Below, piece after piece: positions 1,010 through 18,479 of a stretch of 64,000 bases of DNA (within the stretch, counting starts at the first letter, position 1; every line of letters starts with the position of its first letter). Below the pieces are notes generated by a model. The model was not told the origin of the DNA, did not search any database, and saw nothing but the letters and a program-made list of their open reading frames with translations. The stretch covers positions 62,001 through 126,000 of the forward strand of contig NZ_REFP01000012.1 of the NCBI RefSeq assembly GCF_003688725.1, read 5' to 3'. This stretch comes from Thermoactinomyces vulgaris. Lineage in GTDB: Bacteria > Bacillota > Bacilli > Thermoactinomycetales > Thermoactinomycetaceae. Made by a program: the position numbers and the translations under genes.

Positions 1010-3457
1010 TCATTGGGTTGCAGACCGGGACTCTTCTTTTTCGACAACCAATTTTCCTTCTTTCACATCGATGACCACCGAGTTCCCGCGTGCGACATTG
1101 CCGCGCAACAACTCTTCGGACAAACGGTCTTCGATGTTTTTCTGGATGGCCCGGCGCAACGGGCGGGCACCGTAGCTCGGGTCAAATCCTTCTTTCGCCA
1201 AGTAACGTTTGGCTTCATCCGTCAACCGGAATTCGATTCCCTGTTCAACCAGGCGTTTGCGCAATTGGTTCACCATCAGGGACACGATCTCTTCCAGATG
1301 CTCTTCTTTCAAAGGATGGAAAACAATCACATCGTCGATCCGGTTCAAAAACTCGGGACGGAAAGTTTTCTTCAGCTCTTCCATGACATTTTGCTTCATG
1401 TGTTCATAGTCATCTTCCGCTTGATTGCCGCCAACGTTAAATCCGAGGCGTGACGTTTTCTTGATGGTGGATGCCCCCACGTTGGAAGTCATGATGATGA
1501 TGGTGTTACGAAAATCCACCACCCTGCCTTTTCCGTCCGTCAACCGGCCGTCTTCCAGCACTTGCAACAAGATGTTGAAAACTTCCGGGTGAGCTTTTTC
1601 GATTTCGTCAAACAGGACGACCGAATAGGGTTTCCGGCGGACTTTTTCCGTCAATTGTCCTCCTTCTTCATATCCCACGTATCCCGGAGGCGAACCGACA
1701 AGACGGCTCGTCGCATGTTTTTCCATATACTCAGACATGTCAATCCGGGTCATCGCATCTTCGTCACCAAACATGGCTTCCGCCAAAGCACGGGCCAATT
1801 CGGTTTTTCCGACTCCGGTCGGTCCCAGGAAGATGAAGGAACCGATCGGCCGCTTCGGATCTTTCAATCCTGCACGGGCCCGGCGGATGGCACGGGAAAC
1901 GGAACGGACCGCTTCCTCTTGTCCGATGACGCGGTTATGCAGGATGGACTCCATATTCAACAAGCGTTCCGATTCTTCTTCCGCCAACTTCTTCACAGGA
2001 ATTCCCGTCCAGCTTGAAACGACATCGGCAATATCTTCCGCGGTGACTTCGGAATCGGTTTTTCCTTGGTGTTGTTTCCAGGAATTCCGGTTGATCTCGA
2101 TTTCCTCACGCAATTTTTGCTCGGTATCCCTCAAAGAAGCCGCTTTTTCAAATTCCTGGCTTTGCACGGCCGCGTCTTTTTCTTTTTTCACTTCTTCCAG
2201 CTTTTGTTCCAGTTTTTTCAGTTCCGGCGGCATCATGTAAGATTTCAACCGCACTTTGGATGCCGCTTCATCGATCAGGTCAATCGCTTTATCCGGCAAA
2301 TACCGGTCCGTAATATAGCGGTCGGATAATCTCACCGCTTGTTCAATCGCTTCATCGGTGATTTTCACCCGGTGATGGGCTTCGTAACGATCCCTCAAAC
2401 CTTTCAGGATCAACACCGCTTCCTCAGTGCTCGGCTCTTCCACCAAAATCGGTTGGAAACGGCGCTCCAAAGCGGCATCTTTCTCGATGTATTTCCGGTA
2501 TTCATCCAGGGTTGTCGCACCGATACATTGCAATTCCCCACGGGCAAGCGCCGGTTTCAGGATATTGGATGCGTCAATCGCTCCTTCGGCACCTCCCGCC
2601 CCGATCAACGTGTGCAACTCATCAATGAACAAGATGATGTTTCCGGCTTGGCGGATTTCATCCATGATTTTTTTCAACCGGTCTTCAAACTCACCGCGAT
2701 ATTTCGTTCCGGCCACCACCGTTCCCATATCCAGGGTCATAACCCGCTTGTTGCGCAAGGTTTCCGGGATTTCCCCGTCAACAATGCGCTGGGCCAAACC
2801 TTCGGCAACCGCCGTTTTTCCGACTCCCGGTTCACCGATCAAAACCGGATTGTTTTTGGTCCGGCGGGACAAGACTTGAATCACCCGCTCAATCTCTTTA
2901 CTGCGGCCGATCACCGGATCCAGGTTTCCGTCATGCGCAGCGGCCGTCAAGTCGCGGGCCAAGCCGTCCAGTGTGGGTGTATTGACCTGATGATGGGTAC
3001 TGGAGTGGTTGGAGAAGGTTTCGCTGTTTCCCAAGAGTTGCAAAACCTGCTGGCGGGCTTTGTTCAAGCTCACACCCAAATTGTTGAGAACGCGGGCCGC
3101 CACGCCTTCCCCCTCGCGAATCAAACCGAGAAGAATGTGCTCAGTGCCGACATAGGTGTGCCCCAACTTGCGAGCTTCATCCATGGACAATTCGATCACT
3201 TTTTTCGCCCGTGGCGTATAAGCAATGTTTACGGGTTGCCCCTGTCCCCGTCCAATCAAATTCTCAACTTCTTTTTGGATTTTTTCCAATCCCAGGCCCA
3301 AACCGATCAAGGCCTTGGCTGCAATCCCTTCCCCTTCGCGAACCAATCCAAGCAAAACATGTTCCGTTCCGATGTTGGTATGTCCCAGACGCACGGCTTC
3401 TTCCTGAGCAAGGGCGAGAACTTTTTGCGCCCGTTCTGTAAAACGTCCAAACATCAT
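1010..3457 (-). CDS. clpC: ATP-dependent Clp protease ATP-binding subunit ClpC
   Basis: Class I Clp/Hsp100 unfoldase (815 aa) that feeds substrates, including arginine-phosphorylated proteins and CtsR, to ClpP. Two N-terminal Clp repeats occupy residues 1-145, the first AAA+ module has Walker A GEPGVGKT at about 208-215, a UVR/M-domain coiled coil lies near 415-450, and the second AAA+ module has GPTGVGKT. Length and architecture match Bacillus ClpC rather than ClpB or ClpE. It is the last gene of the ctsR operon, 32 bp after mcsB. The start may be this ATG or the ATG immediately following. Confidence 0.97.
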
Positions 3458-3489: not shown

Positions 3490-4566
3490 TCAGGACTTAT
3501 GTTCCATGGCCAAACGTTCACGAATCAACCGGGCTCTGCGAATGTCCCTTTGTTCGGCATTCAGCCGTTCCCCGGCATACTGTTGCAAAAATCCGGGTTG
3601 AATCATCACCATCAATTCATTCATGACACTGGCCGAAACGCCACGGATAAATCCCAAATCAATTCCCAACCGGACATCAGAGAGAAGGCTCATCGCTTCT
3701 TTGGAATCAATGATGCGGCAATGGGCCAAAGTCCCGTATGAACGATGGACACGGTCTTCCAGCTGAATCAAAGAAACCTCTTGGAGCCGTCCGCGGGCTG
3801 TATGTTCATGTTCAATCATTTGCCGGACAACTCCTTGCAGGTTTTCCAAAATCTCATTCTCATCCAATCCCAGCGTAACCTGATTGGAAACCTGATACAA
3901 TTGGCCCAAAGCTTCACTGCCCTCTCCGTATATTCCGCGAACCGCAAGCCCGACTTGCGTTATCGCCGGCAACAACCGGTTTAACTGCTGGGTCATGGCC
4001 AAAGCCGGCAAGTGAAGCATCACCGAAGCCCGGATTCCCGTCCCGACATTAGTCGGGCAACTGGTCAAATAACCGCACTTTTCATCAAAAGCAAAATTCA
4101 AGTGGCTTTCCAACCAATCATCAATCTCATTGGCCAGTTCCCAGGCTTGCTTCATTTGCAATCCGGGGAACAACACCTGAATGCGGATGTGATCTTCTTC
4201 ATTGATCATGATGCTGACAGATTGGGCTTTATTCAACAAAACGGCGCCATGCCGTGATTCTTCCGCCAACATCGGACTGATCAAATGCTTCTCGACCAAC
4301 ACGCTTTTTTCCAAATCAGACAGGTCCTTCATGCGGATCAATTCAGCACCTGCCAGGAAGGAGTACTTCGACTGATCTTGTTTCAATGCCTGCTCGACTT
4401 TGCGAATCACTTCTTCCGCCTGGGATGCGGTGCTCAGCATGGGAAACGGAAATCCGTCCAAATTCCTTGCGACCCTGATCCGGCTGGAGAATACCACATC
4501 TGACAGAGGACCTTTCACCCGCATCCATTCACTGATGGCATGGTTCATGAAATGTTCGAGTGACAT
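3490..4566 (-). CDS. mcsB: Protein arginine kinase McsB
   Basis: Phosphagen-kinase-like enzyme (358 aa) that phosphorylates arginines on misfolded proteins and CtsR, marking them for ClpCP. The SSRIRVARN block near the N-terminus and the CPTNVGTGIRAS segment with its conserved cysteine in the middle are typical of the ATP:guanido phosphotransferase fold. A GGGAGG site precedes the ATG. It lies 12 bp after mcsA in the class III heat-shock operon and needs McsA for full activity in Bacillus. Confidence 0.97.
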   Translation of the reverse strand: MSLEHFMNHAISEWMRVKGPLSDVVFSSRIRVARNLDGFPFPMLSTASQAEEVIRKVEQALKQDQSKYSFLAGAELIRMKDLSDLEKSVLVEKHLISPMLAEESRHGAVLLNKAQSVSIMINEEDHIRIQVLFPGLQMKQAWELANEIDDWLESHLNFAFDEKCGYLTSCPTNVGTGIRASVMLHLPALAMTQQLNRLLPAITQVGLAVRGIYGEGSEALGQLYQVSNQVTLGLDENEILENLQGVVRQMIEHEHTARGRLQEVSLIQLEDRVHRSYGTLAHCRIIDSKEAMSLLSDVRLGIDLGFIRGVSASVMNELMVMIQPGFLQQYAGERLNAEQRDIRRARLIRERLAMEHKS

Positions 4567-9655: not shown

Positions 9656-10732
9656 TCACGTCAATCCCATTTGGCCGATTTGATACATCATAAAGCCGAT
9701 AAATACGGTCAGCCCCACGTAGACGGTGCCGTAAATCCACCGCAACTTCGGAGGCACGCTGTAATACTTCTCATCCTGTTTAATACCTCCCACACGAAGA
9801 GGCGTATAAGTCCCTTTTAACTTCATTTTCACTTCCGGATCTTCCGGAGAAGGGGGAATCGTCTGTACCAACGTCATCTCATGGATTTGTCCCATCATTT
9901 CAAACTGGAGGATCGTCCCAAGCCCGGGATAACCCACTTCCGCCATTTCTCTCTGGTCTTGGATGAAACAATATTGGCGAAACGGCAAAGAACGTTGGTG
10001 ATATTCACCCGGGATCCACAACCCGGCTTCATCAAAACGCTCCTTTTTCACTCTGGCTTCAATCACAAACTCTCTTTTTTTCGGCTTCTTCTTCCGGTAT
10101 GCCCCCCATAAATCAATCAAAAACATAATGTAAATAATCAACAGCAAAATACTTTTCAAATATATGATCAAAAAAAGCCCCACAATCAAACCGACCACCC
10201 ACAGCCAACGGGTAATCGCCACGACAATCCTTCCGCCATCCAAAGGATGAATGGGGATCAGGTTAAACAAATTTAAAAACAAGCCGATATAGGCGATGGC
10301 GATCAAAAGATCCTGATCAAGCCAAACTCCCAAACCGTAGGAAACAACCGCCCCCAACGTGCCCAAAAGAGGACCGCCCAAAGCGACAAAGGCTTCCGTC
10401 GCCGCATCGCTCGGCTGCTTCTTCATGGTGATCAACGCACCCACAAACGGAATAAAGGCCGGTGCCGACACAGGCAATCCCTTGATCTTTGCCGCCCAAA
10501 CATGTCCCATTTCATGGATGAAAATCATCAAAACCAAACCGATGGCAAATTGATAAGGAAAAAGCAGCGCATATCCTCCGACGGAAATCGCCATGGTGAT
10601 CAATGTGCCGCCAAACTTTCCAAATTTCAACAAGGGCAAGATCGATTTCAACTTGGTTCCGATGCTGACCAAAAAAAGTCCGAGCCAACCCAAATTTCTT
10701 CGATTTTTCTGATTGGACTGTTCCTGCTCCAC
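9656..10732 (-). CDS. Site-2 protease family (M50) membrane metalloprotease
   Basis: Polytopic protein of 358 aa. The zinc-binding HEMGH motif lies in the second or third hydrophobic segment (about residue 73) and the second active-site motif HPLDGG about 90 residues later, as in M50 intramembrane proteases. The N-terminus is basic and cytoplasmic; a soluble domain of about 110 residues follows the membrane core and a last membrane segment sits at the C-terminus. No PDZ domain is seen, so it is not RseP/RasP. It starts at GTG with AAGGAGG eight bases upstream. Substrate unknown; it is single-gene with terminators on both sides. Confidence 0.88.
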   Translation of the reverse strand: MEQEQSNQKNRRNLGWLGLFLVSIGTKLKSILPLLKFGKFGGTLITMAISVGGYALLFPYQFAIGLVLMIFIHEMGHVWAAKIKGLPVSAPAFIPFVGALITMKKQPSDAATEAFVALGGPLLGTLGAVVSYGLGVWLDQDLLIAIAYIGLFLNLFNLIPIHPLDGGRIVVAITRWLWVVGLIVGLFLIIYLKSILLLIIYIMFLIDLWGAYRKKKPKKREFVIEARVKKERFDEAGLWIPGEYHQRSLPFRQYCFIQDQREMAEVGYPGLGTILQFEMMGQIHEMTLVQTIPPSPEDPEVKMKLKGTYTPLRVGGIKQDEKYYSVPPKLRWIYGTVYVGLTVFIGFMMYQIGQMGLT

Positions 10733-10915
10733 TCACAGAGCCTCCTTAACCCGTCTTTTACTATATCTTTCACCGGTTGAATCCGGTCTCATTCCCATAT
10801 CTTTAAGCATATAAAACAATTCCCCTTACAATATACCATGAAACCCGTTCATCAAACAGCCTCGACATTGACAGCATTGTATACAATTTTGCCGCAATTC
10901 CCCTGACAACCCATG

Positions 10916-10955
10916 AAAAAGGCTGTTGACCTACCGGGGTTGTCAACAGCCTTTT
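10916..10955 (-). terminator. Terminator of the pseudokinase-TPR operon
   Basis: Ten-base-pair perfect stem, GGCTGTTGAC (10921-10930) with GTCAACAGCC (10942-10951), flanked by A5 and T5, so it works in either direction. It lies 10 bp after the last gene of the operon. The remaining bases up to 10733 hold no gene. Confidence 0.9.
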
Positions 10956-10961
10956 TGGGTG

Positions 10962-11159
10962 TCACCTTTTTTCAACCTGAATATCCAAAGGCAGAGGATC
11001 TTTCTCGATTTTATCCAATTGCATTTCCAATTTCGGGGTCCGGACGATGATCGGAACGCCGGCTTTTTCATCATCCCCTCCAACCGCCCAAACGACCGCG
11101 CTGATCACAGCGACCACCAGGATGAACGGAATCAAGAGTTTACTTATTGGCTTCTTCAT
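10962..11159 (-). CDS. Small membrane-anchored protein, third gene of the pseudokinase operon
   Basis: Unrecognised 65-aa protein: a basic N-terminus (MKKPISK), one hydrophobic segment at about residues 8-25, then a 40-residue charged tail. By the positive-inside rule the tail would face outward, on the same side as the TPRs of the upstream gene. The start overlaps the end of the TPR gene by 20 bp, with AGGAGG upstream inside that gene, so translation is probably coupled. It may be a partner of the TPR protein; nothing in the sequence gives a function. Confidence 0.65.
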   Translation of the reverse strand: MKKPISKLLIPFILVVAVISAVVWAVGGDDEKAGVPIIVRTPKLEMQLDKIEKDPLPLDIQVEKR

Positions 11160-13107
11160 CTTCCGGTTTTGCCTCCTTATTTTGTGGTGTGGCCTGCATT
11201 TGTTGGGCTTTTTTAATCGCATCCTGATACAAAGACTGGTTCGGATCCAACTGGTATGCGCGTTCAAAAGCTTTCAGCGCTCCTTCTTTGTCTCCCAGCC
11301 CCATGCAGGTGATTCCCAGTTGATAGTGGTAGAGAGGATTTTTCGGATCATATTTGGCGGCTTTTTCCGCTGTCTGATTGGCGGAGATGAAATATCCGTA
11401 CAAATAGTAAGCCATGGAACGGTAATATTGCGCTCTCGGATATTTGGATTCTTCATCCACTGCATCATTGAAAGCCCGGAAAGCAGATTTGGAGTAGCTG
11501 GCAAGTTCTTTTTTCTTCTCTTCGGCGTTCATGTTTTTGTCTTGATAAACTTGTTCCCATTTTTTCAAATAAAGGACACCCAGCGTCACATAATATTCTT
11601 CTTTTTTGCTGCTGGCCAATTTGGCCGCTTTTTTGGCTTGTTCGATCGCTTCATCAATCTTTCCCTGTTTGAAAAGATAAACCGCCAGGTCATGTTGGTA
11701 ACGTGCATTTTTCTTTTTCAAATAGGTGGCAAACTTCAGGGATTGGACTGCTTGATCATAATCCCCCATGGCCCCGTAAATTTTCCCTTGATGGTAATAA
11801 ACTTCTGCTTCTTCACTGGTCAGGGAAACCGCCTGATCCGATGCTTCCTTGGCCAGTTCATAATCCTTCAGATAATAAGCGTACACCGACAAGGCATCTT
11901 GTAACTCATAATCTTTCGGGAATTTATCCGTTGCCGCTTTTAAAATCTGCAATCCGGTTTGATAATCTTCTTTCAATCCGTATAAGTTCGCCAAATGCAA
12001 GAAATACTCTTTTTGTTCCAAATCGGCGCTTAACGCCTTGCGCCCCAGGAGAATGGCCTGATCCAATTGCTTTTGGTCATAAGCTTGTGTCGATTGGCGG
12101 AAGTAATTGAACGCTTCTTGCGGATTTTCTTCCACGGTCGGATCAATCACCCCGGCCAACGTTTCCCGGGTGTTGTCGGCAAACATTTGGATCACCACAA
12201 AAGCCAACACAACGGCCGCTGCCACCAACCCGAACCGCTTCCATCCTTTCCGGCTTTTGGCCGGTTCTTTTTTCTCTTTCTTGGCGCTTTTCGCCTTCTC
12301 TTTTTTATCGGATGCAGCCGGCTTTTTCATTTTCCCTTTCTCTTCCGCCGGTTTCTCCTCCTGATCATCCGCAACCGGTTTTTCATCCAAGGCTTTTGGT
12401 TTTTTCTCTTCATATTGATAGGCCCATTTCCAGAAATCATGGATGCGCGGACGCTTAATGGCGTCATTGGATAATGACCGCAACAGCAGCCCTTCCAATT
12501 GCAATGGCAAATCCGAACGGGAGGAACGAATGGAATCGATCTGCGTGGTTTTGTCGTCAATCCGCTCTTTGGTCAGCATAAAATAAAGTAACTGACCCAA
12601 TTTCTTCACATCTTCGGTCTCTTGGCGGTAGTGACTGAACAAACGGTTGGGGCCCCCGTACAAAAAGCGGAGATGGCCGTCCGATTGCAACACCATGTTT
12701 TGCGGGTCGACCAGGGCAAATTGCTCATCGTCATAACATTGTAACAGATGGCTGGTGATGTTTTTCAACAAGTTGGCCACTTCCGCCATGGGAAGAGGAG
12801 CGGAACGCATCAAATAAACCCCCAGCAAGTCCCCCTCCATACGCTCAAACACCTGATACAGGATCCCGTCTTCGATGAACACATCCTGGACCGGGAAAAA
12901 CACTTCGCTGTTTCGCTTTTTTAACTCTTCCAACTCGTGCTCTTCCGGCTGGTTTTTCAGCTTTACGGCATGAATAAACCGGGTGGTGCCTTCTTCTGCC
13001 TCTTTTTTTACGGACGTAAAATACAAAACCCCTTCCACAAAAGGGAATACACTTAAAACTTCATAACTTCCCCGAATTCGTTCACCTTTCTGTTTAAACT
13101 CACTCAT
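11140..13107 (-). CDS. Pseudokinase-transmembrane-TPR protein
   Basis: Protein of 655 aa in three parts: a kinase-fold domain (1-230), a Lys/Glu-rich linker with one transmembrane helix (about 292-309), and seven or eight TPRs (320-640). The kinase part keeps a C-lobe pattern (LGQLLYFMLT and a final KRPRI) but the catalytic loop reads FALVDPQN in place of HRDxKPxN and the DFG position is LYGG, so it should not phosphorylate. Basic residues precede the helix, so the pseudokinase is cytoplasmic and the TPRs outside. It starts at an ATG with GGAGGAG, overlapping the previous stop by 4 bp. The layout recalls EssB/YukC of type VII secretion, but no such genes are nearby. Confidence 0.78.
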   Translation of the reverse strand: MSEFKQKGERIRGSYEVLSVFPFVEGVLYFTSVKKEAEEGTTRFIHAVKLKNQPEEHELEELKKRNSEVFFPVQDVFIEDGILYQVFERMEGDLLGVYLMRSAPLPMAEVANLLKNITSHLLQCYDDEQFALVDPQNMVLQSDGHLRFLYGGPNRLFSHYRQETEDVKKLGQLLYFMLTKERIDDKTTQIDSIRSSRSDLPLQLEGLLLRSLSNDAIKRPRIHDFWKWAYQYEEKKPKALDEKPVADDQEEKPAEEKGKMKKPAASDKKEKAKSAKKEKKEPAKSRKGWKRFGLVAAAVVLAFVVIQMFADNTRETLAGVIDPTVEENPQEAFNYFRQSTQAYDQKQLDQAILLGRKALSADLEQKEYFLHLANLYGLKEDYQTGLQILKAATDKFPKDYELQDALSVYAYYLKDYELAKEASDQAVSLTSEEAEVYYHQGKIYGAMGDYDQAVQSLKFATYLKKKNARYQHDLAVYLFKQGKIDEAIEQAKKAAKLASSKKEEYYVTLGVLYLKKWEQVYQDKNMNAEEKKKELASYSKSAFRAFNDAVDEESKYPRAQYYRSMAYYLYGYFISANQTAEKAAKYDPKNPLYHYQLGITCMGLGDKEGALKAFERAYQLDPNQSLYQDAIKKAQQMQATPQNKEAKPEDEEANK

Positions 13108-13871
13108 TTTTCTCCTCCAACCTTTTTTTCTAAACGTTCTGCCATCCAATCCAAGAAGTCGGCAATCTCTTCGATATGAGGTCGTTTATGGATATCAAAA
13201 GAGATCGATCGCTGCACAAATTCATCCAGTTCAGCCGGGCAGTCTCGACGGTATTGAGAAACAGAGGGAATTGTGAGTCCTTGTGCCATGGGATTCTTTC
13301 CAGTCAACATCTGATATAACAATGCGCCAACGGTGTACGTATCATAAATCCGGTCCGCGCTGGTGTTTCCCGAAACAGATCCTGCAAATCCTTTGGGCAA
13401 TTCTCCTTTATTTCCCCCATATAAAAACCGCAAAGACCGGCCTGATGTCAGCACCATATTTTGCGGATGGACAAGTGTGAACTGGCCTATTTCATAAAGC
13501 CGGAGCAAATGCTGTATGACTTTGCGGCCTAAATTTACGGTTTCTTTCAAAGACAATGGTGCATGCGTTCCCAGATAATGTGCCAGAAGCGTTCCTTCCA
13601 AGCGCCGGAAAACCTGGAAAAGCAACCCTTTTGTTTCATCGGAAAAAACCTCACGGATTGGGAAAAACACATGTTCATCCCGATGAAGAAGTGACTTCGG
13701 ATCAAAATCAGCATTCACCAATTGAAGGTCAAGGGCATGAACAAACCGGGTATGTACCTCATCCTGACCACAATGATATTCCGTATAGTATAATGTGCCA
13801 ATCACAAATGGAAAACCTTTTAATACACGGTATCTTTCTTTAATCCATTCACCCTCTTGCACTTTCCTCAA
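13104..13871 (-). CDS. Stand-alone pseudokinase-like protein
   Basis: Soluble protein of 255 aa homologous to the kinase-like half of the next gene: shared VFFP, LVxPQNMVL (135-141) and LRFLYGG blocks. The C-lobe resembles Ser/Thr kinases (YTVGALLYQMLTGKNP; RSISFDIHKRP), but the catalytic Asp, its Lys, the DFG Asp and a VAIK-type lysine are missing, so a binding or scaffold role is likelier than catalysis. The start is taken as TTG at 13871, ten bases after GGAGG. First gene of a three-gene operon. Confidence 0.75.
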   Translation of the reverse strand: MRKVQEGEWIKERYRVLKGFPFVIGTLYYTEYHCGQDEVHTRFVHALDLQLVNADFDPKSLLHRDEHVFFPIREVFSDETKGLLFQVFRRLEGTLLAHYLGTHAPLSLKETVNLGRKVIQHLLRLYEIGQFTLVHPQNMVLTSGRSLRFLYGGNKGELPKGFAGSVSGNTSADRIYDTYTVGALLYQMLTGKNPMAQGLTIPSVSQYRRDCPAELDEFVQRSISFDIHKRPHIEEIADFLDWMAERLEKKVGGEK

Positions 13872-16098: not shown

Positions 16099-17622
16099 TT
16101 AACCGATCGCCAGCTTTTTCATCCGCTCTTGTTTTTCCAACACTTCTTCTTCCGTCAGGTTGGACTTCCGCTCGATATTCAATTCCCCCAGCAATTTCCC
16201 CGCTGTGGAGTCAATCACCGAGATATGGATGATTCCATCACTGTCATACTCAAAAATAACCTCGAGGGGAGCGCCTTTGGGGTATTCCGGCAAGTCGATC
16301 ATGCCTTCCCCCACGATTTTTACATAATCCAGATCCATGTCTTCCCCTTCCGTCACTTGCAAATGCAATTGGGACTGTTGATCAACGGTGGTTTCATAAT
16401 GGCCGCTTACTTTGCTGGGGATCACGGTATCTTTTTTGAGTACGATGGAGTTGAATTCTTGCCCGGATTCATCCAGCGCCACAACCCCCATGCTGTGAGA
16501 ATTGACATCCTGCACTTCAACCACCGGGAAGGACTGGCTGAGTGAGAGGTCGGCATTTCCTTCCTTAATCTGCAGGATCGCACCTTGGATGGCAGCTCCC
16601 AAAGCCACCACTTCATCCGGATTGACATCCAATGACGGCTTGATTCCCGTGACACGCTCGATCATGGCAGGAACTTGTTTCATCCGGGTCGAGCCGCCGA
16701 CCAAAAGGACTTTGTCAATGTCTTTCCATTCAATGTTTGCGTCTTCCAAAACGAATTCCATGATTTTTTGGGTCCGGTTCAGGAGAGGAGCGGTTAATTC
16801 ATCAAAAATCTCTCTTGTCAGGGTGATGGATGCGTTGATTCCATTGGCAGACAGGAATACATTGGTGCGGTCACGGACAGAAAGGGTTTTCTTGGCGATT
16901 TCCGCTTTATCACGCAAGTCCTGTTCCAGCATGGGGTCTTCCAACAGATCGATGCCCCCTTGCTTTTGGAACTCTTCATTCAGGTAGTTCATCACCACAT
17001 TATCCCAGTCAAAGCCGCCAAGGTTTTTGGCACCCCCGGTGGACAACACCCTCAATCCGCTTGGAGACAAGTGCATAATGGTCACGTCAAAGGTTCCGCC
17101 ACCCAAATCATAAACCAGAATGTTTTGCTCCATATGCATCTTGTCCAATCCGTATGCCAGTGCCGCTGCGGTGGGTTCGTTAATGATGCGAAGAACATTG
17201 AGACCTGCAATTCTTCCCGCGTCTTGTGTCGCTTTCCGTTGTGCATCGTCAAAGTAAGCGGGGACGGTGATGACGGCATCTTCCACTTTTTCCCCCAGCA
17301 GGGTTTCCGCGTCTTCTTTCAGGCGCCGGAGAATCATGGCCGAAATTTCTTCGGGGGTAAAGTCTTCGTTTTGTTCCGTGGTGAATTTCCATGCCTTGTC
17401 GCCAATCTGTCTTTTCACAAATTGGACAACATTAAAAGGACTTGCAACTGCAGAACGTTTCGCAATACTGCCCACAACCACATCCGAACCATCAAAGAGA
17501 ACGACAGAAGGAGTAATCCGTTCCCCTTCCCGGTTCACCATAATTTCCGGTTTCCCGTATTTATTTACAACAGAGATCGCCGAATAGGTTGTTCCCAGGT
17601 CGATCCCAACGACTCTTCCCAT
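16099..17622 (-). CDS. Hsp70/DnaK-family paralogue lacking the C-terminal lid
   Basis: Hsp70 homologue of 507 aa, about 100 residues shorter than DnaK. The nucleotide-binding domain looks complete: GIDLGTTYSA (6-15), Lys70 in VKRQIG, INEPTAAALAYGLD, DLGGGTFDV (172-180) and VGGSTRM, so ATP hydrolysis is expected. The canonical DVTPLSLG linker is replaced by a diverged stretch, the beta substrate-binding domain is short, and only about 35 helical residues follow, so the lid is absent. Not the main DnaK, which in Bacillus sits in hrcA-grpE-dnaK-dnaJ. Its own promoter lies upstream, and a GrpE-like gene lies 220 bp further upstream on the same strand. Confidence 0.88.
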   Translation of the reverse strand: MGRVVGIDLGTTYSAISVVNKYGKPEIMVNREGERITPSVVLFDGSDVVVGSIAKRSAVASPFNVVQFVKRQIGDKAWKFTTEQNEDFTPEEISAMILRRLKEDAETLLGEKVEDAVITVPAYFDDAQRKATQDAGRIAGLNVLRIINEPTAAALAYGLDKMHMEQNILVYDLGGGTFDVTIMHLSPSGLRVLSTGGAKNLGGFDWDNVVMNYLNEEFQKQGGIDLLEDPMLEQDLRDKAEIAKKTLSVRDRTNVFLSANGINASITLTREIFDELTAPLLNRTQKIMEFVLEDANIEWKDIDKVLLVGGSTRMKQVPAMIERVTGIKPSLDVNPDEVVALGAAIQGAILQIKEGNADLSLSQSFPVVEVQDVNSHSMGVVALDESGQEFNSIVLKKDTVIPSKVSGHYETTVDQQSQLHLQVTEGEDMDLDYVKIVGEGMIDLPEYPKGAPLEVIFEYDSDGIIHISVIDSTAGKLLGELNIERKSNLTEEEVLEKQERMKKLAIG

Positions 17623-17843: not shown

Positions 17844-18479
17844 TCAGGGATTATATTTTTTTATCACCACTTCTTCAGGTCTGAGAACCACGTCTCCATA
17901 TCTAAAGCCATGGCGGATCATATGGACAACCATATTATCTTCTGCAGGGTTATTGGTGGGAATCACTTCAACCACTTGTTGAATTTTGGGATCAAATTTG
18001 TTGGACGGGGCAACAATCAATTCAACGCCGCGACGGTACAAAATTTCCAGCACTTCATGGCTCAAGGTTTGCAGAATGTCAATTAATTCGGGATTTTGTC
18101 CTCCGACATCCAGCTGATCGTTATAAATATTGTTCATCCGGTCAATCAGCAGAATCAAATCAATGTAAAGCGGACGGAGTTGTTGAAGTTCCTGGTCCTG
18201 CTTCAACTCTTCCATCTCTTTATAAAGGCGGTCAAACGCCATTTCTTTCGTTTTGTCATAACTGAGCCGGTTGGTAACCACATTCAACAGCGATGTGAAA
18301 TTTTGTTGCAATGCACTGAGCATGTTCAAAACTTGTTGTTGGGAACGAGATTCGCTTTTGGTTTCTTTGATCGGACTCGGAGCCACGTTTTCTTTTTTTG
18401 TTAATCCAAAACGCGCTTCAGGAAATGAAAGCTGGTTACCCTGTTCTAAGAATCTATGGTTCTCTTTCCTGGAACCCAT
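17844..18479 (-). CDS. GrpE-like protein, putative exchange factor for the Hsp70 paralogue
   Basis: Protein of 211 aa with an N-terminal polar region, a long helical segment (about 45-125) and a C-terminal beta segment whose end (HGFRYGDVVLRPEEVVI) matches the conserved GrpE tail with LRPA-V. GrpE proteins release ADP from Hsp70. A GGGAGG site precedes the ATG. It sits upstream of a lid-less Hsp70 on the same strand, which is the main reason for proposing a dedicated pair; overall similarity to canonical GrpE looks low. Confidence 0.65.
   Translation of the reverse strand: MGSRKENHRFLEQGNQLSFPEARFGLTKKENVAPSPIKETKSESRSQQQVLNMLSALQQNFTSLLNVVTNRLSYDKTKEMAFDRLYKEMEELKQDQELQQLRPLYIDLILLIDRMNNIYNDQLDVGGQNPELIDILQTLSHEVLEILYRRGVELIVAPSNKFDPKIQQVVEVIPTNNPAEDNMVVHMIRHGFRYGDVVLRPEEVVIKKYNP

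Follow-up and report, generated by a model that had tools for sequence, protein, structure and literature searches.

A pseudokinase operon of Thermoactinomyces vulgaris and a conserved membrane pseudokinase–tetratricopeptide repeat family in its order

We were interested in a three-gene operon carried by a 64,000-nucleotide stretch of the Thermoactinomyces vulgaris genome (RefSeq assembly GCF_003688725.1, contig NZ_REFP01000012.1, positions 62,001 to 126,000; hereafter, the window). A sequence-only reading, made without database searches, had described the operon as two pseudokinases, one of them linked across the membrane to tetratricopeptide repeats (TPRs), plus a small membrane protein. The genome (assembly of 2.56 Mb) is labeled G000 here; other genomes and loci carry G and L labels where they need to be told apart. 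The operon consists of the following features, in window coordinates:

13104..13871, minus strand: pkA, a putative soluble cytoplasmic pseudokinase of 255 amino acids (aa), with an HPQN region for HRDxxxxN and YGG for DFG
11140..13107, minus strand: pkB, a putative pseudokinase–transmembrane (TM) helix–extracytoplasmic TPR protein of 655 aa
12406..13107, minus strand: cytoplasmic pseudokinase domain of pkB, aa 1–234 (model, alignment, and 41% identity to pkA)
12184..12240, minus strand: TM helix of pkB, about aa 290–308, after a Lys-rich linker (model helix, hydropathy, and charge)
11203..12123, minus strand: TPR solenoid of pkB, with roughly eight helix pairs and a cap, aa 329–635 (Pfam TPRs, model, and Foldseek)
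10962..11159, minus strand: small exported-type protein of 65 aa, with a signal-peptide-like N-terminus and a TPKLEM...PLP stretch
10916..10956, no strand assigned: intrinsic terminator, an A/T-flanked inverted repeat at which the pk operon ends, setting an M50 peptidase gene apart

The start codon of pkA is TTG, preceded by AAGGAGGG. As the sequence-only reading had it, the three genes overlap, by 4 bp (pkA/pkB) and 20 bp (pkB/small protein); a complex of the three products, which that reading thought probable, is plausible. The terminator region (minus strand, 10905–10962) folds at −28 kcal/mol (z = −5.3; 0 of 200 shuffles equally stable) and has a T tail; a simple terminator scan did not report this hairpin, the loop limit of the scan being 8 and the hairpin loop ∼11. 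Because this stable hairpin with its T tail follows the small gene, the M50 peptidase gene downstream (9656–10732, minus strand) probably lies outside the pk transcript.

Judged by their modeled fold, pkA and the corresponding domain of pkB are members of the protein kinase superfamily. Structure prediction, which the sequence-only reading had named as a check on its kinase assignment, gave a bilobal kinase fold for pkA (AlphaFold mean pLDDT 91.8, pTM 0.89); the pkB model has a mean pLDDT of 85.9, with the linker at residues 236–290 poorly predicted. The best 50 rows of a VIA-align structure search with pkA had Z scores of 17.8–20.1 and were all kinase entries by title except 8ej4, by title an NLRP3 inflammasome complex, in which the matched chain is presumably NEK7. 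The top match was PknB (2fum; Z 20.1, 227 residues aligned, rmsd 4.3). pkA also matches Staphylococcus aureus PknB/Stk1 by sequence (8.9e-8) and by profile (1.3e-15), while Pfam Pkinase scores below its cut-off on pkA (15.3 vs. 31.7 bits). The kinase-like domains of pkA and pkB are 41% identical across 246 residues.

We refer to pkA, pkB, and their homologs as the pk family. Of the other 33 genomes with pk, 30 contributed stretches no longer than 20 kb (G005, G016, and G025 were left out, their genera being represented); all pk genes found in these stretches and in the window, 54 in total, comprised 31 TM-TPR forms and 23 soluble forms, 13 of the latter paired. By the criterion of the catalytic Asp and the DFG Asp, these proteins are not active Ser/Thr kinases. 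The HRD-Asp column holds Asp in 0 of the 54 aligned rows, with the Asn kept in all 54, and the stretch corresponding to HRDxxxxN is mostly FTLVHPQN-like, F[TA]x[VI][HD]PQN. The DFG Asp is likewise found in 0 of 54 rows; YGG is present in 48 and its first Gly in 53, and the Gly-rich loop resembles FPFVxG. How the HRD stretch should be registered is uncertain, as the profile alignment pairs the HPQN His with the HRD His with four residues deleted, and in 15 rows, window pkB included, Asp replaces the HPQN His, 3 residues before the Asn instead of 5; HRD is obtained in no register of the stretch. The earlier claim that the catalytic Asp and DFG had been lost is borne out in all 54 rows, with an HPxN...YGG signature conserved instead. 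That the dead site is itself conserved across the 54 rows argues against decay. pkA and pkB would presumably be unable to bind ATP.

The repeats of pkB are readily recognized: TPR_2 scores 66.4 bits (cut-off 27), eight more TPR models exceed their cut-offs, and the solenoid matches the designed TPR superhelix 8chy in Foldseek (E = 2.0e-14). The flank on the N-terminal side of the TM helix is the more positive one in 31 of 31 TM-TPR forms, which, under the positive-inside rule, puts the TPRs outside the cell by prediction. One TM helix joining a pseudokinase to seven or eight outer TPRs, as first proposed from the sequence, agrees with this charge pattern and with the modeled helix pairs.

A survey of relatives, also suggested in the sequence-only reading, found the pk family conserved across the order Thermoactinomycetales, in 34 of 42 genomes. 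This count excludes G029 (1.7e-4; no match at 1e-12 in the class-wide sample), and weak matches from G040 and G011 were left out as nonmembers, as was a G038 fragment of 53 residues (1.7e-6). In a class sample of 398 genomes, family matches went down to 130 bits, and the best match below them, at 65 bits, lay outside the order (at most six candidates were scored per genome at first look); in a phylum sample of 398 genomes, G000 alone passed 1e-20. Occurrence of the family outside the order was rejected on these two samples. In the collection of named genomes, one relative was found, Thermoactinomyces mirandus. A phage or plasmid origin was also set aside, with no relative found for the pkB profile in viral contigs or for pkA in plasmids. 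The pk proteins are thus a real, conserved membrane pseudokinase–TPR family, seen in one order only among our samples.

In a midpoint-rooted tree of the 54 rows, the soluble/TM-TPR label requires at least three changes on well-supported branches, and the soluble forms of family f3 nest among f3 TM-TPR forms, separately from the main soluble clade, which has 17 members. Soluble forms therefore appear to have arisen at least twice, the direction of change depending on the root. The rows of L057, L053, and L070 are long branches, and the second gene of L053 is a short pkB-type gene.

TM-TPR genes tend to have a putative exported product encoded close by. Directly downstream of 13 of the 31 lies an open reading frame (ORF) of 51–71 aa whose start is both basic and hydrophobic and which has AxA-like sites and, in the short part after the N-terminus, a stretch like [KR][TS]PxLEM....PIP. 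The window protein shares its Sec-like N-terminus and the following motif with 12 relatives, so that this third gene, originally read as a small membrane protein, more likely encodes an exported one, with either a cleavable signal or a signal anchor. A profile of the small proteins, run over the 42 genomes, gave strong matches (1e-13 or better) in 15, every one at a pk gene; 13 of these had built the profile, and those in G005 and G025 were new. Five weak matches (0.005–0.1) lay away from pk genes. In a separate observation, L070 encodes a 366-aa secreted-type protein (2003–3103, plus strand; no Pfam match) with TPKLEIE after a signal-like stretch, which resembles the motif of the small proteins (weak profile match, E = 1.8).

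Another 11 TM-TPR genes have, no farther than 2.6 kb away, a gene for a protein that is rich in Pro or Gly and ends in an LPXTG-like tail, with a sortase also within 2.6 kb in five of these cases. Gram_pos_anchor scored 19.6 bits on the one LPXTG-type protein tested, falling slightly short of its 20-bit cut-off. When the count was limited to genes lacking another pk gene within 1 kb, a partner of either type was found at 16 of 19 TM-TPR genes and 0 of 10 soluble genes (Fisher's exact test, p = 1.4e-5, an optimistic value as the rows are related).

The sequence-only reading had noted a likeness to EssB/YukC, which layout, fold, and profile comparison all support. pkB has the YukC/EssB layout of pseudokinase, TM helix, and outer helical domain, its topology being derived from charge. 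For comparison, we assembled a YukC-like set of seven proteins of the order, out of 10 that scored over the PF10140 cut-off; the set matches EssB (4ano) at E = 3.7e-5 and has the signature FxPxNFFV...LYRG..LMP, similar to that of pk. A set of active kinases, which we take to be PrkC-type, came from nine of 10 chosen loci picked by HRD and DFG, with L137 removed by the motif filter. The pkB domain matched the YukC-like set at probability 96 and score 64 (maximum of 24 in 60 column shuffles) and pkA at probability 85–92; the active kinases reached probability 23 against the YukC-like profile, a score lowered by their profile being less diverse than that of pk. In these comparisons, the pk family sits between YukC-like pseudokinases and active kinases. 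EssB was not among the best 50 structure rows of pkA, which excludes nothing.

Among the window neighbors of the pk operon, no EssC, YukD, or WXG100 gene was seen, consistent with the initial remark that type VII secretion genes are absent. For the genome as a whole that remark does not hold, since G000 has an unlinked type VII operon. On contig C3, at ∼333.9–338.7 kb (positions 4361–9209 of L146, G000:C3:329500-348500), a single run of genes encodes a YukD-like protein (38.2 bits, cut-off 27), EssC (1363 aa; TIGR03928 1271 bits, cut-off 778), and a WXG100 protein. The YukC model PF10140 is not matched anywhere in G000. EssC has ∼40 residues before its first hydrophobic stretch and is therefore too short there for FHA domains. 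The FHA model PF00498 finds none in G000 either, a result that says little because the same model is silent in the Bacillus subtilis control. G000 also has two weaker WXG100-like matches (L147 and L148), compared by tblastn with the pk stretches only.

We lean toward reading the operon's products as a stand-alone scaffold in the envelope, of the same kind as YukC, EssB, and TraF, with outer TPRs that would dock an exported neighbor. In such a scaffold, the pseudokinase domains would carry out no phosphorylation and would act as cytoplasmic protein-docking and dimerization modules, pkB pairing with itself and/or with its soluble paralog pkA. The single TM helix would connect the cytoplasmic pseudokinase to the outer TPR solenoid, and the solenoid would dock the exported product of the adjacent gene: the small TPxLEM-type protein here and an LPXTG-type Pro/Gly-rich protein near other copies. 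The assembly may hold together or gate a cell-envelope process. Though not a member of PF10140, pk most likely works like YukC and TraF, both of which have been shown by experiment to be interaction hubs (available text of PMC9600267 and PMC13037476); its function and partners we infer.

Several observations weigh against this scaffold. Neither pkA nor pkB gave a PF10140 row at E = 1, and the match of pk to active kinases (probability 99.5–99.7) is above that to the YukC-like set, a result that preservation of much of the C-lobe would lead one to expect. A single canonical YukC scored 1–2 against pk, the same sequence reaching only 60 against the YukC-like set. With the active-kinase match stronger, the single YukC score this low, and the profiles differing in diversity, common descent with YukC after the loss of catalysis is not proven. 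The EssC of this genome leaves no room for the FHA domain, YukC's known contact. TPR groove positions showed no significant excess of conservation over the rest (385 of 5000 permutations reached the observed value), and groove conservation was accordingly rejected as a sign of peptide binding. On the partner side, seven of the 31 TM-TPR genes have neither type of neighbor, and an MFS gene lies between the TM-TPR and LPXTG-type genes in two of the 11 cases (L050 and L055). The lack of a small or LPXTG-type neighbor at all 23 soluble genes is, for the 13 paired ones, partly by construction, pkB mostly filling the neighboring downstream place. Finally, no motif common to the small and LPXTG-type proteins was detected (89 of 100 shuffles scored the same or higher), and such a shared motif was rejected. 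If the scaffold reading is right, the pseudokinase–TM–solenoid hub would be a reusable envelope module, bound to neither type VII (T7SS) nor type IV (T4SS) secretion systems, and the minimal trio would make the role of noncatalytic YukC-type pseudokinases testable with three genes.

A possible but doubtful alternative is that pkB, with pkA, fills in for the EssB/TscD-type subunit that the unlinked, YukC-less type VII system of this genome lacks. EssC, the YukD-like protein, and WXG100 do lie in one gene run with no PF10140 match in the genome, and FHA-less EssC is known, being described for T7SSc, T7SSg, and T7SSh; T7SSc moreover has a kinase–TM subunit, TscD, and T7SSj a kinase with predicted TPRs (available text of PMC11217815). 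Yet the pk and type VII genes are unlinked, and in the pk stretches of 40 relatives EssC, the YukD-like protein, and WXG100 had no match at E = 1e-3 (tblastn). The occurrences of pk and YukC are also unassociated across the 42 genomes (seven with both, 27 with pk only, three with YukC only, five with neither; p = 0.37), and an association between the two was rejected. We hold it similarly doubtful that the operon represents a third use of the YukC/TraF design, in which the outer TPRs would read a short secreted peptide of the same operon and the paired dead kinases would relay or gate export, perhaps forming the pseudokinase arm, now detached, of a type VII system that is split and lacks FHA domains.

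We think it unlikely that the pk proteins form an envelope signal receptor, with outer TPRs that would detect a surface protein or a peptide and pseudokinases that would modulate an active PrkC-type kinase by heterodimerization. The nearest solved relatives by sequence and fold are indeed Stk1/PknB kinases, and the genome has two PrkC-like kinases of its own, yet no kinase or phosphatase gene was recognized in the pk loci by clustering, in which many genes are unlabeled.

A role as the hub of a Tad pilus or sortase-linked surface structure, serving the assembly of the pilus or of LPXTG-type proteins, is also unlikely. TadE/TadG-like, vWA lipoprotein, sortase, and LPXTG-type genes recur near pk; the pk, LPXTG-type, and sortase genes are codirectional in L046 and L048; and TadE and pk are weakly associated in occurrence (p = 0.045). 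Against this, Pfam TadE is absent from this genome and from 10 of the 33 other pk genomes (although at least one of these, G040, has TadE-like proteins by clustering), the Tad genes of syntenic loci lie beyond a divergent MFS gene, and sortases are present in 42 of 42 genomes, so that local linkage alone counts. With no Pfam TadE in 11 of the 34 pk genomes, subject to the same caveat for G040, an obligate Tad partner was rejected. In L046 (8947–12582) and L048 (6836–10153), the TM-TPR pk, LPXTG-type Pro-rich protein, and sortase genes share one direction and are likely an operon. TadE-like genes occur near pk in L037, L042, L053, L061, and L064, some with TadG-like genes and vWA lipoproteins, and the TadE-like gene of L053, the one tested case of the long kind, is fused to an M23 peptidase.

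Two further candidates were dropped: a defence kinase, the best NCBIfam row of pkA being MAD6 (39.5 bits, cut-off 460; part of the C-lobe), which we took as general kinase likeness, PADLOC not having been searched; and the M50 peptidase as a functional partner, a gene cut off from the pk operon by the terminator, present in five genomes at least 97% complete that are without pk (G019–G022 and G032), and missing in four with pk (G031 and G033–G035).

Other features of the neighborhood are recorded here. The M50 peptidase was matched in 36 of the 42 genomes, its occurrence independent of pk. The interval separating pk from M50 in L038, L042, and L053 contains genes for DUF169, Yip1, HlyD-like, ABC ATPase, and MacB/FtsX-like permease proteins (Pfam was run on four L042 proteins). 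The window also encodes a second, short DnaK-like protein (507 aa; 16099–17622) and a divergent GrpE (17844–18479), both on the minus strand; in L051, L054, L071, L072, and L074, one further gene family follows DnaK-like/GrpE, in L054 a J-domain and TPR protein.

Among known systems, PknG of Mycobacterium tuberculosis (2pzi) likewise carries a kinase-like domain and TPRs on one chain and matches pkB in Foldseek (E = 1.9e-9), but an rmsd of 24 over 710 columns indicates a different arrangement, and PknG is soluble. PrkC/Stk1/PknB kinases share the fold and give the strongest sequence match to the pk domain; in pk, by contrast, the catalytic Asp, DFG, and Gly-loop are missing, and TPRs replace the outer part, which in these kinases consists of PASTA repeats.

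Pseudokinases that are linked to the membrane and have lost all three motifs form an established class (PMC12599244), and the available text of that review does not contain the terms tetratricopeptide, TPR, or Thermoactinomyc. The sequence-only reading knew of no described system of this form, which is too strong, as YukC/EssB, TraF, and TscD/TsjD have the same layout; no description of a stand-alone pseudokinase pair or trio with an exported partner was found in the literature searched. In the available text of PMC11217815, TscD (T7SSc) and TsjD (T7SSj) have an N-terminal kinase-like domain, a TM helix, and a helical outer part, with predicted TPRs in TsjD. The kinase active site is retained in TscD, whose gene lies within the EssC cluster, whereas pk has lost the site and its genes are unlinked.

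TraF of the Gram-positive T4SS of pIP501 is a structural homolog of YukC, and it resembles pkB in its pseudokinase, TM helix, and helical outer domain similar to TPR proteins (available text of PMC13037476). Unlike for TraF, no conjugation genes were recognized near the pk operon in the locus clusters, where many genes are unlabeled. Separately from pk, the two of our seven YukC-like proteins whose neighbors were tested (L077 and L083) are encoded directly after a TraG/VirD4-type coupling protein and are therefore probably TraF-like conjugation subunits, in agreement with PMC13037476. YukC/EssB of type VIIb systems shares several traits with pk: a cytoplasmic pseudokinase with lost kinase motifs, one TM helix, an all-helical outer domain, and, as proposed for pk, a hub role, YukC being a hub that forms dimers, cannot bind ATP, and makes contact with the FHA domains of the ATPase (available text of PMC9600267). 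Compared with YukC/EssB, pk lacks a PF10140 match and linked T7SS genes, and it adds recognizable outer TPRs, a soluble paralog, and a small partner that is probably exported.

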